From Streptococcus oralis (GTDB taxonomy: Bacteria; Bacillota; Bacilli; Lactobacillales; Streptococcaceae), in the NCBI RefSeq assembly GCF_016028255.1, contig NZ_CP065707.1, positions 1,379,001-1,443,000 on the forward strand: 64,000 nucleotides of DNA, written 5' to 3'. The notes under the pieces were generated by a model. The model saw only the letters and a program-made list of their open reading frames with translations, searched no databases and was not told the origin of the DNA. Of this stretch, positions 42,206-49,769 are shown one piece after another; positions within the stretch are counted from its first letter, which is position 1; each line of letters opens with the position of its first letter. The translations under genes were made by a program, and so were the position numbers.

Positions 42206-43276
42206 TTATAAACTATCCAAGGCATTCTTTTGTTCATCATTGACGATATGGGTATAGAGGTCAGTGACTTGTGTACTGGCGTGTCCTAGCTGATGGCTGA
42301 CCAAAACTTGCGATTTAGTAGCATCATAGAGCCTAGTCGCCAGAGTATGGCGTAGTTTGTGGGGAGTTACACGGACTTTGAAGTCCTCAGAGTACTTAGC
42401 AACCATTTTCTCAACGCTGGAGGCATCGATACGATTGGGAACACCACGATATAAGGTCAGAAAGAGTGCTGTATCCGTCTTTTCCGTCTTATAGCGTTGA
42501 TTTCGAATGGCTAGATAATTTTCAAGATAAGGCTTGGCAAAGGCAGCGACATTGACCGAGTCACGTTTGCCACCTTTTCGAGTGACATCGATAACCATCA
42601 TTTTGAGATTGAGATCTCTTAGATCCAGATTAACAGCTTCAGATAGGCGGACACCAGACGCTAGGAGAAGGGCGATAATGGCCAAATCACGTTCCTTATT
42701 TTTATTAAAGGAGGATAAGGCACGATTTGAGAGCTGGTTTGGATACTCTTGGTTGATATAAGTCAGAAAACCTTCTGTTTCATCACCTAGAAAGAGCTTT
42801 TGCTTGATGTTTTCAGCTCTGGCAGCAAGAGTTTCTTTCTTTTTCTTGGTTGAAACTTTCTTCATTACATTACGATAGAAATAGGGTTCTCCCTGGTCGT
42901 TTTCAACCTCCTCTGTTAGATACTTGTAAAGACTAGAAAGTGCCGACAAAGTCCGATTAATGGTCGTCTGAGAAACGCCTTGTTTGGTTGTATTGGCATT
43001 CAGCAAAGGTCGTTCTCTTAGATATAGGATAAAGGATTCCATATCTTTCTTTGACATGTTTTCCAAGACCGATAAAGGAATATCAGCCATTTTATCAGCA
43101 TTTGAAATCCCAGACTCTAAAACCCAGCTGAAAAATCGGTCATATTCCTTGAGGTATTCGTACAAGGTTGTAAAGCTATAGGGGACAGCAAGCTTAGATT
43201 GGTAGTATTCCAGAACATACCAGGGCATGATTTGTTTTAGTTTGTCGATTCGTTCTAGTAAAATCTCACGTTTCAT
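42206..43276 (-). CDS. xerS: Tyrosine recombinase XerS
   Basis: 356 residues. Resolves chromosome dimers at dif as the single recombinase of streptococci, replacing XerC/XerD. The N-terminal SAM-like domain covers about 1-150; the catalytic domain has R in [15 protein letters not shown], the HxxR box in [16 protein letters not shown] in [14 protein letters not shown] and the nucleophile in DLYTHI. Its promoter overlaps the dif site, so binding of XerS there may affect its own expression. GGAGAAAATAC precedes the ATG. Confidence 0.97.
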
Positions 43277-43305: not shown

Positions 43306-43334
43306 AGTATAGCATAGACATATTTATTTTTCAA
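43306..43334 (-). promoter_or_regulatory. xerS: xerS promoter
   Basis: On the minus strand TTGAAA (43334-43329), 17 bases, TATACT (43311-43306) with TGC ahead (extended -10). The -35 is inside dif. Confidence 0.75.
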
Positions 43335-43359
43335 GAAAATTATAGTTTTTCGGAAAGAT
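43328..43359 (-). other. dif site of the XerS system (difSL)
   Basis: On the minus strand the sequence starts ATCTTTCCGAAAAACTATAA and continues TTTTCTTGAAAA, which is the 31-32 base streptococcal/lactococcal dif as I remember it, with its typical asymmetric arms. As in other streptococci it lies just upstream of xerS. It marks the zone where replication ends. Confidence 0.92.
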
Positions 43360-43418: not shown

Positions 43419-43709
43419 TTAAATTTCATCATACTTGAGTAACATATTCGGAATCTTTGCTTCAAGACTCTTGCGAACTTTACCTTTAATTGCAGTGTCC
43501 ATTTGGCTATTTATGCTTGTGATGGTTGATTTGGTTTCTGTAGCAATTTTTTCAGCTGCCATATTAAAGTTTTCTTTTAATTTATTTTTTGCTGATATTG
43601 CTAACCTTGCTTCCGTAATAATTCGGTTTCTTTCCATCATTCGATACATTTGTTTCAGTGCATATTGATATTCTTCATCAGTGTAGTATTCATTCATTGG
43701 CGCTTGCAT
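43419..43709 (-). CDS. Small helical protein, candidate type VII partner (TlaA-like)
   Basis: 96 residues, predicted to be two long helices without signal peptide (YTDEEYQYALKQMYRMMERN; NMAAEKIATETKSTITSINS). Size, helix-hairpin shape and position resemble the small WXG100-like partners (TlaA1/TlaA2 for TslA, Lap proteins for LXG toxins) that build the composite secretion signal. Its start lies inside the upstream gene (20-base overlap), so it is made together with it. No sequence match to a named family is claimed. Confidence 0.6.
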   Translation of the reverse strand: MQAPMNEYYTDEEYQYALKQMYRMMERNRIITEARLAISAKNKLKENFNMAAEKIATETKSTITSINSQMDTAIKGKVRKSLEAKIPNMLLKYDEI

Positions 43710-44082
43710 AATCTCTCCTTAGTTTGTGAAATTCTTCGTCTAAATCATTTCTTTTTTTGCGAAACTCGTTATCGTATTTTTCTCTCTCATCTTCGAGTTT
43801 AATTCTACGTTCTCTGTATACCTGATCTGAAAAGTGTCTCATATTTTCTATTTCTGTAAAGTAGTCTCTAACATCATCAGCACTTGACGAAAATTTTCTC
43901 AAGATTTGATACATTTTATCAACTTCTTCGGATATCAGTTTTTCTAAGTTTGCATTTCGTTCGTCTAGATCGAGTGCTTTGTTATCGAGTTTCTTCTTTT
44001 CTTGATAATATTGGTCTTCTAGAGCAAATAGTTCTCTTTCTTTCTCTCTTATTTCTTCCCATTTTACATCTTTTCTTTCCAT
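43690..44082 (-). CDS. Coiled-coil protein, candidate type VII partner (TlaA-like)
   Basis: 130 residues, highly charged and helical throughout (WEEIREKERELFALEDQYYQ; DEREKYDNEFRKKRNDLDEE). It overlaps the lipase gene by 19 bases and the 96-residue gene by 20, giving a tightly coupled set. In the S. aureus TslA system two small helical proteins encoded beside the lipase bind its C-terminal domain for export; this protein and the next fit that part. The exact pairing is inference. Confidence 0.6.
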   Translation of the reverse strand: MERKDVKWEEIREKERELFALEDQYYQEKKKLDNKALDLDERNANLEKLISEEVDKMYQILRKFSSSADDVRDYFTEIENMRHFSDQVYRERRIKLEDEREKYDNEFRKKRNDLDEEFHKLRRDYASANE

Positions 44083-45223
44083 TGTCGAAACTCCTTGGCT
44101 AATTGCTTGTCTGTTGCTACTGTTTTTTCGATGACTTCCTGTAATTGTTGATCCATATTTTCAAATGCTTGGGCGGAAGCATTCATCTTAGTGGCTGTTT
44201 GATTTGTCTCTGCCTGAAACGTATCGATAAACTGTGCTTGAGTGATACCTTGGCTAGCAAAAAGGGCCTCAACCTCATAGGGAGCTAAGGCTGTGTAGCT
44301 TGAAAAGTCGATTTTTGACCAAATTTCTTGTAATTCTTGATTTGCTTTTTTGGCTAAGGCGCTGACTTCATCAGCTCCAGTTCTTGCTGCTGTAGCCATA
44401 GATGATGATAGGATAGAACCTTGAGCTGCATCTAAGTATATTTTCTCAGAGCTACTAATGCCACCTGATGACCATTTTGATTTCAAGTCCTTGTAATGAG
44501 CCATTCCTCGGAGACTGTTGGCATAGGCTCGATAAACGCCACTGATTAAGGGTTTCCCTCCTTTGCCATCTACAAGTTGACCAGTTACAGGATCAAACTC
44601 CCAGTCACCAATTTTATGACTCGAACCATCAAGCCAGTGAATCGTACTAGGCATAGAATTTGTAGTGGTAGTATTATACCATTCTGGATGGTTAAAATCA
44701 TTCCAGACTACTACGTCATCATTTTTTCTACGGTAATCTATAAACATAGAAGGGTTACTTTCAATAAATGCTTTTTCTTTCAATGAAAGGGCTCCATATT
44801 TAAACCAAGCATTAAAGGTGGTTGTAGGTATGTGATATTTAGCCCCTACTTTAAGCATATAAGCCCCTTGTGAATAGCCCGATAGTTGACTAACTTCATA
44901 TCTGGGATCATCCATAATCTCTTTTACGAATTGGTCAGCAACCTTATATTGTGGAGATAAATAAGTTTGCCTTGCAATTATGGCACTATTGACGTCGCGT
45001 GAGCTGAACATAGTTTTATTCACCGGACTATCAGGATCCGTTCCAGTAGCAATCACAGCTACATTTTTATAATAGTGTTAGTTTCATCCGAAGATAACTT
45101 ATCATTTGTTTTGGCTACAACTTTCTTTTCAACTTCCCTTTCAGCATATTCAAAATTTACACTATAAACATTTTTTCCGTGATTTAATTCATTGAGTTGT
45201 TTATCAGTATAAGTGTATACCAT
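44064..45223 (-). pseudogene. TslA-like lipase with C-terminal helical domain, frameshifted
   Basis: Restored, the protein has 386 residues. ATG 45223 starts MVYTYTDKQLNELNHGKNVY; the frame runs into TAG at 45061-45059, while the rest continues in the next frame from about 45066. One extra base in the five-T run (plus strand, 45064-45068) joins them. The main part is lipase-like: nucleophile elbow LSGYSQGAYML (Ser about 118), candidate Asp in KNDDVVVWNDF and His in GSSHKIGDWEF. From about residue 270 it is all helical (TARTGADEVSALAKKANQEL ... EKTVATDKQLAKEF), as in a WXG/LXG-type export domain, but at the C terminus. This reversed order matches TslA, a type VII-secreted phospholipase of Bacillota. 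It may be inactive here. Confidence 0.65.
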
Positions 45224-45654
45224 TAATATTCTCCTTCTGAACCATCTGAATAAATAATTTTTGTGAGTTTACTAGTCTTACCCAAGTGACTATTTAAAAA
45301 TTCTCGGTCCTCTTTTCTATTCTCTCTCTCTAAAGATACATCAGAAATACGTTTATCTTTTTTTGAATAATTAATTTTATATTTTATGCTTCTCTCGTTA
45401 AAATATAGTTCAACTACGCAAGTCCAACTTCCTGGAGGATTTGTGTAGTTTGCATTAGAAAATCTAATTTCTTCAATACCCTCATAACTATCTTTTAAAG
45501 TTTCAACCAAACTAACTTCGTACTCTCTATTTCGACGCTCTTCTTGAGACTTCCCTAACATACTAAACATAAAAACACCTCCTGCTGTAATGAATGCAAC
45601 TAACAAAACGATTAGTAGCCTTTTATGACTTTTTTTAATTCCAGAATTGTTCAT
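45223..45654 (-). CDS. Membrane-anchored extracellular protein, candidate immunity to the lipase
   Basis: 143 residues: short basic start, one membrane helix (LLIVLLVAFITAGGVFMFSML, about 14-34), then a soluble outer domain with GIEEIRFSNANYTNPPGSW and RSIKYKINYSKKDKRISDVS, like small cystatin-like extracellular domains. No lipobox. Its stop TAA overlaps the lipase ATG by one base (TAATG), so the two are translationally coupled, as for immunity-toxin pairs. In S. aureus the TslA immunity protein TilA is a surface lipoprotein; this would be a membrane-anchored counterpart. AAAAAGGAG precedes the ATG. Confidence 0.55.
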   Translation of the reverse strand: MNNSGIKKSHKRLLIVLLVAFITAGGVFMFSMLGKSQEERRNREYEVSLVETLKDSYEGIEEIRFSNANYTNPPGSWTCVVELYFNERSIKYKINYSKKDKRISDVSLERENRKEDREFLNSHLGKTSKLTKIIYSDGSEGEY

Positions 45655-45677
45655 TTGAGTTTTTCTCCTTTTTCTTA

Positions 45678-45683
45678 TTATAC
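45678..45683 (-). promoter_or_regulatory. -10 of the lipase cassette
   Basis: TATAAT on the minus strand, about 24 bases before the immunity-candidate ATG; the -35 region is AT-rich and unclear. Confidence 0.5.
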
Positions 45684-45715
45684 TATATTTTAATTAATTT
45701 TAACGATATAAGAAG

Positions 45716-45748
45716 TAAAAACCGATCTCTGCGCGAGAATCGGTTTCT
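45716..45748 (-). terminator. Terminator of the ClC gene
   Basis: On the minus strand AAACCGAT...ATCGGTTTTT with an inner TCTC/GAGA stem. It separates the core ClC gene from the lipase cassette. Confidence 0.85.
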
Positions 45749-45780
45749 AAAGTAATTTATTGAAAATCCTGAACTTAAAA

Positions 45781-45803
45781 TACATAATATAAATTATGTA
45801 AAC
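45781..45803 (-). repeat. 23-base near-palindrome, right copy
   Basis: Inverted copy of 42179-42201 with one mismatch; inner TACATAAT/ATTATGTA is a perfect palindrome. It lies 5 bases past the ClC stop codon. A 13-base piece (AAATTATGTAAAC) also occurs at 37214-37226. Confidence 0.55.
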
Positions 45804-45808
45804 GTCAC

Positions 45809-47365
45809 CTACAACAACAAATCTTTGACTTTTCCAATTTCACTTTTTGGAATCACTAGGTGAATCATATCACCCAGATACATTCTGGTTGAGCCGTTAA
45901 CTGTTTGGCTTTTGCCATTATGTACTTGGGTGGTGATGAGTACGTTATGTGGCAAGTTGAGCTCGTGAACCTGTTTTCCAGCGATCTTATCTGATACAGG
46001 GATTTCAATGAGGGTAACTTCTCCTTCGTCTGTCGCTTCTTCTGGTAGCATTTTTTCTAGCATAGCTTCATAGACTGGAGCACCCTTGAGCAGATCCATG
46101 ACGATGTAGGCGACCAAGGTCACTAAGCCAAGTGGCATGAGGTTGCGAATATCTCCAACCATCTCGGTTACGAGTATCATAGCGGTTAAGGGAGCCTTGG
46201 ATATTGCCCCAAAGTAGCCACTCATTCCTAAAATGACAAATATAGGAAATTGCTCTTGACTGACAAGCCCAAGATTGACACAAATGACACCGACTAGGGC
46301 ACCAAGCAAGGAACCAAGCGCCAGAATGGGAAGGAAAATTCCTCCTGGGAGACCACTTCCATAGCTAATCATGCTCCAAACAAAGCGAATCAGAAAGTAA
46401 GCTAATAAAACCTGAAAACTAAAATCTTGCTCAGTCAAAGAAAGAACGACCTGATTTCCACCACCGAGGATTTGTGGCAAGAAAATCCCGACTGGTATGA
46501 TAAGGATAAAGGCTAGGATTGGATAATAAGCTCTATCCAAATGGATTTTTTGACCAATCCAGTCATAAACTCGACCAACATTAAGTACAGCTTTCTCATA
46601 GAGAAAACCAGAGAGTCCGAGAAAAACTCCCATAAGGAGGTAAATCCAATACTGGTCTAGAGTCATGAGAGGAATGTTGTCTGGCATATCCAGTACGGGT
46701 GTTAAGCCAAATATGAGCAGAGAAACAAAGTTTGCTACGAGACTGGCTGCTAGAGTTGAGACCCAGAAAAAGCGGGAAAAATGGTGATAGACTTCTTCTA
46801 CAACAAAGAGGAGACCTGCAATTGGTGCATTAAAGGCAGCTGCTAAACCTGCAGCAGCTCCACTGGCAATCAGGGAACGTTCCTCTACTGGGCTAGATTT
46901 GAGCCAATTGGCGATGCCTTTACCACCAACTGCTCCAAGTTGAATACTTGGCCCTTCTCGACCTAGCATAAGGCCACTGGCAATAGCAAGAATACCTAGA
47001 ATATATTTTTTCCAAAGGACACTCCACCAGTTGAGAGTCATCAGTCCCTTTAGTTCGGCTTCGACTTGAGGAATTCCTGAACCCTTGATATCTTTTTCTG
47101 ACCGAGTTAATTTCGCACTGAGCCAGCTAACAATTAAATAAAATAGACCAATGATAAAAAGATTGCGCACTAGGTGCGCTTGATTTTGATAGAGTCCTTG
47201 TATCAGGTGGAAGCCTTTTTCGATTGAAAACCGAAAGGATCCGACGATTAGTCCGACGACGAGACCGACAATGACCCCTCGCCCAACTTGGGATAATATG
47301 GTGCTTGAGGCAAAGGCAAATTCCTTCTTGGAGCTGAGTATTTCTGACTGTTCCTCCATAATCAT
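45809..47365 (-). CDS. ClC-family chloride/proton antiporter with TrkA-C domain
   Basis: 518 residues. ClC selectivity motifs are KGSGIPQVEAEL, GREGPSIQLGAVGGKGIA (gating glutamate) and GSGLPGGIFLPILALGS; a glutamate at LFVVEEVYHHFSRF fits a proton-coupled exchanger. The last ~75 residues (EIPVSDKIAGKQVHELNLPH) are a TrkA-C type regulatory domain. Likely role: anion exchange and acid or fluoride-related stress, but the substrate is not proven. It follows rnhB after 9 bases in one transcript with rbgA; GAAGGA lies before the ATG. Confidence 0.93.
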   Translation of the reverse strand: MIMEEQSEILSSKKEFAFASSTILSQVGRGVIVGLVVGLIVGSFRFSIEKGFHLIQGLYQNQAHLVRNLFIIGLFYLIVSWLSAKLTRSEKDIKGSGIPQVEAELKGLMTLNWWSVLWKKYILGILAIASGLMLGREGPSIQLGAVGGKGIANWLKSSPVEERSLIASGAAAGLAAAFNAPIAGLLFVVEEVYHHFSRFFWVSTLAASLVANFVSLLIFGLTPVLDMPDNIPLMTLDQYWIYLLMGVFLGLSGFLYEKAVLNVGRVYDWIGQKIHLDRAYYPILAFILIIPVGIFLPQILGGGNQVVLSLTEQDFSFQVLLAYFLIRFVWSMISYGSGLPGGIFLPILALGSLLGALVGVICVNLGLVSQEQFPIFVILGMSGYFGAISKAPLTAMILVTEMVGDIRNLMPLGLVTLVAYIVMDLLKGAPVYEAMLEKMLPEEATDEGEVTLIEIPVSDKIAGKQVHELNLPHNVLITTQVHNGKSQTVNGSTRMYLGDMIHLVIPKSEIGKVKDLLL

Positions 47366-47374
47366 TCATTCCTT

Positions 47375-48160
47375 CTAACTTAAACTTTCTTTTTCTTCTG
47401 CAACCAATGATTTAACGGGTTCAAAGCTGATTCGGTGAATTGGGGTAACTCCTAGTTTCTTGAGTCCGTCTAGATGTTTAGCTGTTCCATATCCTGCATT
47501 AGCCGTGAAATCATAGCCGGGATATTGATTATCATAGTCCTTCATAATATTATCCCGTGTCACCTTAGCCACTATAGATGCAGCTGCGATGGAGAGGGAG
47601 TTAGCATCTCCTTTGATAATGGAGGTTTGTGAAATTGGTAACTCCAGTTTCATGGCATCTATCAAGAGATGCTCAGGTTGCGGACTGAGCTGGGAGATTG
47701 CTTCCTTCATGGCCAGCTTGGTCGCCTCGTAGATATTGACTTGGTCAATGATGTGATTATCCTTGATACCAATACCTATTGCCAAGGCTTGGTCTTGAAC
47801 GGCTTGATAAATTTCCAGATGTTTCTTTTTAGGGATCTTCTTGCTGTCGTTGAGGCCTCTAATCTTACAATTTTTTGGTAAAATAACGGCTGCAGCGACC
47901 ACAGGACCAGCCAGAGGACCACGGCCGACCTCATCAACACCTGCTATTAAGGTCAATCCTTGTTTATAAAGCTCCTTTTCATAGGAAATCATGGATTCCA
48001 AACGAAGGTTTTCATCCAGTTCTGCCTGAATGGCTTTTTTACGCTTGCTGATTTCCTTTTGAACTCCAGAACGAGTATCTTTTTCGAGTTCTAAAAAAAT
48101 AGGGCTTTCTAAATCCTTGATTGCAGCAAGAAGTTCTTTGATTTCTTTAATCGTCGTCAT
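47375..48160 (-). CDS. rnhB: Ribonuclease HII
   Basis: Cuts RNA in RNA-DNA hybrids and removes single misplaced ribonucleotides. The 261 residues have the catalytic DEG in [20 protein letters not shown], further acids in [10 protein letters not shown] and [11 protein letters not shown], and the [11 protein letters not shown] end. The N-terminal ~70 residues form the helical extension usual in Firmicute RNase HII. It overlaps rbgA by 14 bases, as in pneumococcus. Confidence 0.96.
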
Positions 48161-49213: not shown

Positions 49214-49429
49214 ATGAATATAGTAAAGACTCGGAAAGTGGGGAATTCGCTCACTGTGACCATTCCTAAAAATTTGGGGATGACAGAAGGTCAAGAAATG
49301 GTCGTCTACAAAGGGATTGACGGAGTCATTGTCTTAGCTCCAAAACTAAAAGATCCTTTTGATGGGATTACTGATTTGAGAATGACAAATGATTTTGAAG
49401 GGGTAAGGTCACTTGATAACGAAATCTGA
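49214..49429 (+). CDS. pemI: Antitoxin, MazE/PemI type (AbrB-like)
   Basis: 71 residues. VKTRKVGNSLTVTIPKNLGM (residues 4-23) is the swapped-hairpin AbrB/MazE DNA-binding domain. The acidic tail (KDPFDGITDLRMTNDFEGVR) would wrap the toxin. GTGGAGG precedes the ATG. It binds its partner and represses the operon. It overlaps the toxin gene by 17 bases. Confidence 0.85.
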   Translation: MNIVKTRKVGNSLTVTIPKNLGMTEGQEMVVYKGIDGVIVLAPKLKDPFDGITDLRMTNDFEGVRSLDNEI

Positions 49430-49769
49430 CTATATTCCTGAAAAGCAGGATATCATTTGGATGGATTTTGATCCATCAGTCGGTCGAGAAATTCAGAAAA
49501 GGCGACCTGCCTTGGTAGTTTCTAGGAGAGAATATGCCTTGCAAACTGGTTTTGTGGCTGTCTGTCCCATCACTCATGGCCAACAACGTTTGGCAGAAAA
49601 AGGTTTGCTCGTTCCTGTCTCGTCGGACAAGGTAGATGGCGCTGTCAATCCATTTCAACTCTATACCTTTGATTTTCGGATGCGTAATGCTCAAAAAATA
49701 ACAAGAATGGACACACAATGTTTTCAGAAAGTCGTCCAACTTTACCAGTACATCTTTGGAGATACTTAA
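49413..49769 (+). CDS. pemK: Toxin, MazF/PemK type endoribonuclease
   Basis: 118 residues from TTG 49413, inside the end of the antitoxin gene with AAGG upstream. The MazF/PemK fold is seen in DIIWMDFDPSVGREIQKRRP, ALVVSRREYALQTGFVAVCP and the later VDGAVNPFQLYTFDFRMRNA. Such toxins cut mRNA at short sequences when the antitoxin decays. The pair is on the plus strand in a region where nearly all genes are on the minus strand, fitting later acquisition. A shared terminator follows. Confidence 0.9.
   Translation: MITKSDYIPEKQDIIWMDFDPSVGREIQKRRPALVVSRREYALQTGFVAVCPITHGQQRLAEKGLLVPVSSDKVDGAVNPFQLYTFDFRMRNAQKITRMDTQCFQKVVQLYQYIFGDT

Follow-up and report, generated by a model that had tools for sequence, protein, structure and literature searches.

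Relatives of a broken type VII lipase cassette beside dif in Streptococcus oralis carry orphan toxin heads that may serve the joint exchange of toxin specificity and immunity

We analyzed a toxin cassette in a stretch of 64,000 nucleotides from Streptococcus oralis (positions 1,379,001 to 1,443,000 of contig NZ_CP065707.1, assembly GCF_016028255.1), hereafter the window. Read on the minus strand from 45654 to 43419, the cassette has an immunity-like gene, two open reading frames (ORFs) of 54 and 330 codons that are the remains of one lipase-like toxin gene, and genes for small proteins of 130 and 96 amino acids (aa). Comparison with related loci suggests, with a probability of about 0.77, that such cassettes hold a donor-fed specificity block that crosses the boundary between two genes. 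An exchange through two homologous arms, which we infer from the pattern of conservation, would replace the specificity of the toxin and the immunity together.

The linked block itself extends from within the immunity gene over the start of the toxin gene, as follows from the co-variation of the two genes and from the profile of diversity along them. The loci on the side of dif provided 19 immunity-toxin pairs, reduced to 13 unique, non-identical ones with L013 left out. The distance between immunity proteins correlates with that of the first 82 columns of the toxin (r=0.73, Mantel P=2e-4) and is uncorrelated with that of four other segments. Between the immunity protein after residue ~62 and toxin columns 1-60 the correlation is 0.81, against -0.11 between this variable part and the first part of the same protein and 0.11 between it and the next block of the toxin. 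Among the 78 strain pairs, the 8 with the same toxin N-terminal part (the head) have immunity variable parts that are 79-99% identical, the 64 with clearly different heads have variable parts 26-56% identical, and 6 are intermediate. Nucleotide diversity increases from 0.08-0.22 to ~0.38-0.48 within the immunity gene, is 0.24-0.49 at toxin codons 1-50, and decreases to 0.09-0.17 at codons 61-110. The block includes neither the catalytic residues nor the export domain.

Potential donors are found next to the full toxins. In the locus maps, a unit composed of an immunity gene and an N-terminal toxin fragment (an orphan head) is present up to four times, followed by an immunity gene, the full toxin, and two helical genes. 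Full toxins occur in 53 of the 75 named loci, the other 22 having no single ORF that matches all three toxin models, and 20 of these 53 loci carry a total of 36 orphan heads. All but one of the heads are upstream of the nearest full toxin (35/36; the exception, in L042, is downstream, between two toxins), and 31 come directly after an immunity-like gene. The window holds no orphan head, and the first 51 residues of its toxin head are identical to those of an orphan head of strain CR140 (L014). The relatives contain incomplete toxin genes that go with immunity genes and have a homologous arm. We could measure 29 of the 31 paired units, which come from Streptococcus, Enterococcus, and Cerasibacillus, as two have no recognisable block. 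Compared with the resident gene, the measured units have median identities of 0.90 for the left arm, 0.67 and 0.68 for the block, and 0.88 for the right arm (random: 0.64), and both arms are clear in 21 of them. In five of the nine orphan units of the dif-side loci, the immunity protein and toxin residues 1-75 are both at least 88% identical to their counterparts in the active unit of a different strain. The upstream spare copies are therefore likely, as judged from these alignments, to act as donors for swapping the block made of the immunity end and the toxin start. The same layout is present with an immunity protein of another family, DUF576: locus L137 has three orphan heads, each 162-163 aa long; the divergence is 0.28-0.57 over the first ~50 codons of the toxin and 0-0.15 over the following ~110, and the immunity genes contain a conserved block.

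Some observations count against regular exchange. Toxin codons ~111-130, 181-190, and 221-240 also vary, independently of the immunity gene. With 13 loci the sample is small, and some correlation between neighbours is expected from linkage by itself. Three of the nine orphan units have no close active counterpart and one is close in the immunity gene only, while among three DUF576-type loci orphan heads are found only in L137 (none in L136 and L138). Finally, 8 of the 29 measured units show no clear rise in both arms. These units, together with orphan heads that are short or end in common non-toxin tails, would fit heads that are debris of tandem duplication, with a correlation between immunity and head produced by adjacency and without regular exchange. 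We find this unlikely, because the 5' part of the immunity gene adjoins the variable part and yet is uncorrelated with it (-0.11), because in the three genera above the interior has a near-random identity whereas both arms reach ~0.9, and because five of the nine units closely resemble active units of other strains. Orphan heads might also be functional small proteins, e.g., decoys or co-factors of the immunity proteins. Many of them are indeed open frames of ~90-125 codons, and in 94 of 142 junctions an overlap of 4 bases (48 cases) or 1 base (46 cases) joins the immunity ORF to the following toxin or head. However, their C-terminal ends are short and differ, and this coupling would be inherited from the full gene; such a function seems highly improbable to us.

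If orphan units are donors, a crossover in each arm, one in the 5' part of the immunity gene and one at toxin codons ~56-105, would replace specificity and matching immunity jointly and leave the catalytic core and the export domain in place. In an intact relative, binding of the two helical proteins to the C-terminal domain would allow EssC-dependent export. The lipase would act on the membranes of bacterial competitors, and the producer would be protected by its membrane-anchored immunity protein, which would recognise the head, the part it is predicted to bind. A safe change of toxin specificity requires that immunity change too, and a block containing both is a one-step solution. We lean, less firmly, towards a broader statement: reverse-domain type VII lipases across Bacillota would be equipped with silent arrays of donors for the swap of one boundary-crossing block, changing specificity and matching immunity in one exchange and leaving enzyme core and export signal untouched, and two unrelated-looking immunity families (membrane-anchored DUF1433/1310-like proteins and DUF576 lipoproteins) would have been recruited into the same layout. 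A swap block that contains both specificity and immunity predicts that the immunity protein reads the first ~55 residues of the lipase; it would also account for the spare immunity genes around these lipases and give DUF1433/DUF1310-like proteins a testable role. Switching would then be measurable in oral commensals, which are naturally competent.

Orphan Rhs toxin modules, which have parallels in contact-dependent inhibition and LXG systems, provide one comparison. Like the units described here, they consist of partial toxin and immunity genes beside a full toxin with which they can recombine (cited in PMC9484751). Unlike them, the present arrangement is a mirror image in which the spare parts are upstream N-terminal heads, and the segment proposed to be swapped starts within the immunity gene and ends in the toxin gene. 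Recombining immunity paralogues are known for esaG, tipC, and lpl, tandem genes with variable regions between conserved homology blocks (PMC9484751); there, the genes described as shuffled are immunity or neighbouring non-toxin genes, whereas here the toxin start is within the same block. A toxin fragment also lies among the immunity genes of the S. aureus tsaI cluster, but it is homologous to the 3' end of tspA and no recombination was found there (accessible part of PMC9484751). Reverse lipases are known at other types of type VII secretion system (T7SS; accessible part of PMC11217815), and the toxin class and the immunity-first order were already described in S. aureus, in the TslA/TilA/TlaA1/TlaA2 set of the Tsl1 family (PMC10730906). 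Our cassettes share with this set the order of immunity gene, toxin, and two helical genes, the N-terminal Ser-Asp-His lipase with a C-terminal helical domain, the polymorphic N-terminal part of the toxin, and the location away from the T7SS locus. They differ from it in an immunity protein that, in the window, is not DUF576 and has no lipobox, in the broken window toxin, in the position beside dif, and in the orphan heads of the window's relatives, of which we found no mention in the accessible part of PMC10730906. An earlier, sequence-only reading of the window had recognised the part list of an immunity-like gene, a lipase, and two small helical genes, which holds; it had also taken the immunity-first order for a difference from S. 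aureus, although the order of TslA is identical (PMC10730906). The literature searched, with most subscription papers outside it, yielded no description of orphan N-terminal heads of reverse lipases or of a boundary-crossing block. It yielded none of the S. oralis dif-side cassette either, in line with the earlier suggestion that no streptococcal version had been described at this site, but streptococcal relatives as such are widespread (see below).

In the window, the short toxin ORF corresponds to residues 1-54 and the long one to residues 90-424 of P0002, an intact relative of 424 aa. The two are in different frames and ~35 codons between them (P0002 residues 55-89) are absent, among them five alignment columns without variation in 38 relatives (G74 and A79-P82). 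The body ORF retains the Ser-Asp-His triad without the complete N-terminal core. As the window toxin is not a single intact frame with this core, we class it only as a broken relative. Among the matches listed, 104 of 120 homologues have 413-427 aa. A protein of 386 residues, restored by the sequence-only reading across what it took for a frame break, was rejected as the natural form, because intact relatives carry the residues 55-89 that the window has lost by deletion. A relative of 386 aa does exist (P0036), shortened in frame within the N-terminal region that is also hit by the window deletion. Intact copies being common among relatives, the break might be an assembly artefact and the living strain have an intact gene. 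We give this very little credit: ~35 codons are gone, more than a single base, the genome is assembled in one contig (2.02 Mb, 99.99% complete), and a 330-aa relative with the same start as the long ORF, P0026, represents 43 member sequences. Hence, broken copies may recur. Under the proposed exchange, the deletion would have taken part of the lipase core and, along with the toxin frame, most of the right arm, so that the window copy would yield immunity alone.

The predicted fold, the catalytic triad, and the C-terminal helices of this toxin family fit the reverse-domain lipase class to which S. aureus TslA belongs, as first proposed. The 330-codon ORF has 236 homologues at E<=1e-3 and is thus not a chance frame. 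The Ser of the GYSQG elbow noted earlier is invariant in 38/38 aligned rows. Alignment and structure prediction give intact relatives an N-terminal lipase fold with Ser-Asp-His, so the likeness to alpha/beta-hydrolase lipases stands. A C-terminal helical LXG-like domain was found as well, and so was sequence homology to DUF576-associated toxins among the loci compared, a set with TslA itself outside it. The Foldseek comparison proposed earlier was less favourable to the class, with no match for the toxin at E<=1e-3 and a best row at E 3.4e-3 (a type VI secretion system lipase effector/immunity complex); lipase rows came from a second look at Foldseek's own list. Similarly, the GxL motif is present by pattern in only 13 of 38 rows, with GxI in 7 more, and the equivalence to TslA G310/L312 is by position. 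A PDB sequence search with the toxin returned weak feruloyl esterase matches only. In L067, L071, L072, L077, and L078, the lipase part is inside proteins of ~620-800 aa for which the model of the C-terminal helical domain is silent; these are again behind immunity-like genes, some with orphan heads. Three loci of Leifsonia (Actinomycetota; L066, L075, and L082) encode proteins of 391-412 aa with the lipase part, with an immunity-like gene directly upstream in L066.

The 143-aa immunity candidate has 2217 homologues, hence its gene is not there by chance, and is 98% identical to the active immunity-like protein ahead of an intact toxin in L018. An N-terminal hydrophobic stretch without a Cys lipobox predicts a membrane anchor, as the first reading had it. 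The AlphaFold2 model has a predicted local distance difference test score (pLDDT) of 82.5, with residues 1-26 below 50; a fold search gave no match at E<=1e-3, and the single PDB row matched by the profile (E 0.066) was taken as chance. Family scans found no DUF576 in the protein, and among 32 immunity relatives there were weak matches at E<=0.01 to DUF1433 in two and to DUF1310 in one. With neither DUF576 nor a lipobox, we did not class the window protein as TilA, a DUF576 lipoprotein. In other streptococcal loci (L139:7682-8635 and L140:10495-10890), the immunity position is held by DUF1310 proteins, whose function is unknown according to Pfam.

The cassette was initially described as four overlapping genes on the minus strand (Table 1). 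The strand is right and adjacent ORFs overlap, except that the lipase is made of two ORFs in different frames with 2 bases between them. The TAATG coupling is also right, the immunity ORF and the next one having base 45223 in common. Two small helical partners, whose helical character is read from sequence, are present 3' of the toxin; the F/YxxxD/E export motif is not conserved in the helical proteins in an alignment judged by eye. In family scans, none of the five window ORFs had a match above a curated cut-off.

Table 1. Features of the cassette and its surroundings (positions in the window).
Feature	Position	Strand	Basis
Candidate immunity gene, 143 aa, intact	45223-45654	-	ORF list
Toxin head ORF, 54 codons, separated from body	45059-45223	-	ORF list, comparison with P0002
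Lipase body ORF, 330 codons, Ser-Asp-His candidates and C-terminal helical domain	44064-45056	-	ORFs, alignment
Candidate nucleophile Ser (GYSQG), equals P0002 S156	44871-44873	-	Alignment, position by counting
130-aa coiled/helical partner candidate, Tla1 position	43690-44082	-	ORFs, loci maps
96-aa helical partner candidate, Tla2 position	43419-43709	-	ORFs, loci maps
Inferred exchange block, immunity 3' part and toxin head	45062-45471	-	Approximate limits transferred from relatives
dif-like site, 30 bases	43330-43359	none	Comparison with relatives
xerS, XerS tyrosine recombinase gene, neighbour	42206-43276	-	NF003462, 560.6 bits, cut-off 267

The flanks of the cassette are 88-94% identical to S. 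oralis-type loci, which by itself points to a host from this species complex. The closeness to dif proved correct, with 59 bases between the dif-like site and the 96-aa gene. Comparison of this interval in relatives showed the site to be kept 57-62 bases past the last helical gene in 7/7 named S. oralis-type loci, with no mismatch in six, which are identical to the window site, and one mismatch in L013. None of six further loci tested, which belong to different species or to the second cassette type (see below), has it at this place. With 7/7 against 0/6, the dif flank seems to be a stable location for the cassette in the S. oralis-type clade. An integrative element at dif was considered and is not supported, since each examined stretch has one dif-like site, which speaks against integration.

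The sequence-only reading saw no type VII machinery. This is true of the window, but a type VIIb locus that contains the six core genes lies elsewhere in the genome. EsxA (PF06013, TIGR03930), EssB (PF10140, TIGR03926), EssC (1481 aa; TIGR03928, 1433 bits), and EsaA (TIGR03929) are over cut-off, so a genome search for the first three, as had been suggested, found them all; EssA and YukD/EsaB are recognised below cut-offs. The locus (~564-591 kb) is flanked by two similar same-strand transposase gene sets with rve/HTH_21 (L007:8289-9742 and L008:14206-15486), presumably IS3-like. A second cassette lies at 941 kb of the same genome. Its 403-aa lipase is uninterrupted and 33% identical to the window body, and the cassette further contains three immunity-like genes, one 135-aa orphan head, and its own helical genes of 130 and 97 aa.

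Relatives occur in Streptococcus, Enterococcus, Lactococcus, Listeria, and others. A profile search matched 89 of 284 Streptococcus genomes at E<=1e-3. EssC is present in 80 of these 89 carriers, in 35 of 40 hand-picked genomes with long matches, and in 43 of 48 among the matches listed that span at least 350 positions. Type VII genes thus accompany the toxin in the window genome and in most carriers, as the first assignment implied. Two genomes stand against this: G121 and G127 keep intact toxins with no EssC at E<=1e-100 and no EssB at E<=1e-3, as one would find if export and use of the lipase did not depend on type VII secretion. Such independence is hardly probable in view of the 80/89 carriers with EssC, of helical partner genes retained in most loci, and of the stop codons within the toxin match in G034 and G043, two carriers lacking EssC.

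A single immunity query matched 41/284 genomes at E<=1e-8, a figure not comparable with the profile count of 89/284 at E<=1e-3. As thresholds and query types differ, we draw no conclusion on immunity genes outnumbering toxins by genome. Contig C7 of genome G069 (45314-47835) has immunity genes and orphan heads, no full toxin among the matches listed, and no EssC, and might be an immunity-only island. Elsewhere in the window, overlapping ORFs at 49214-49769 (+) encode a toxin-antitoxin pair of MazE-like (71 aa, PF04014) and MazF/PemK-like (118 aa, PF02452) proteins.
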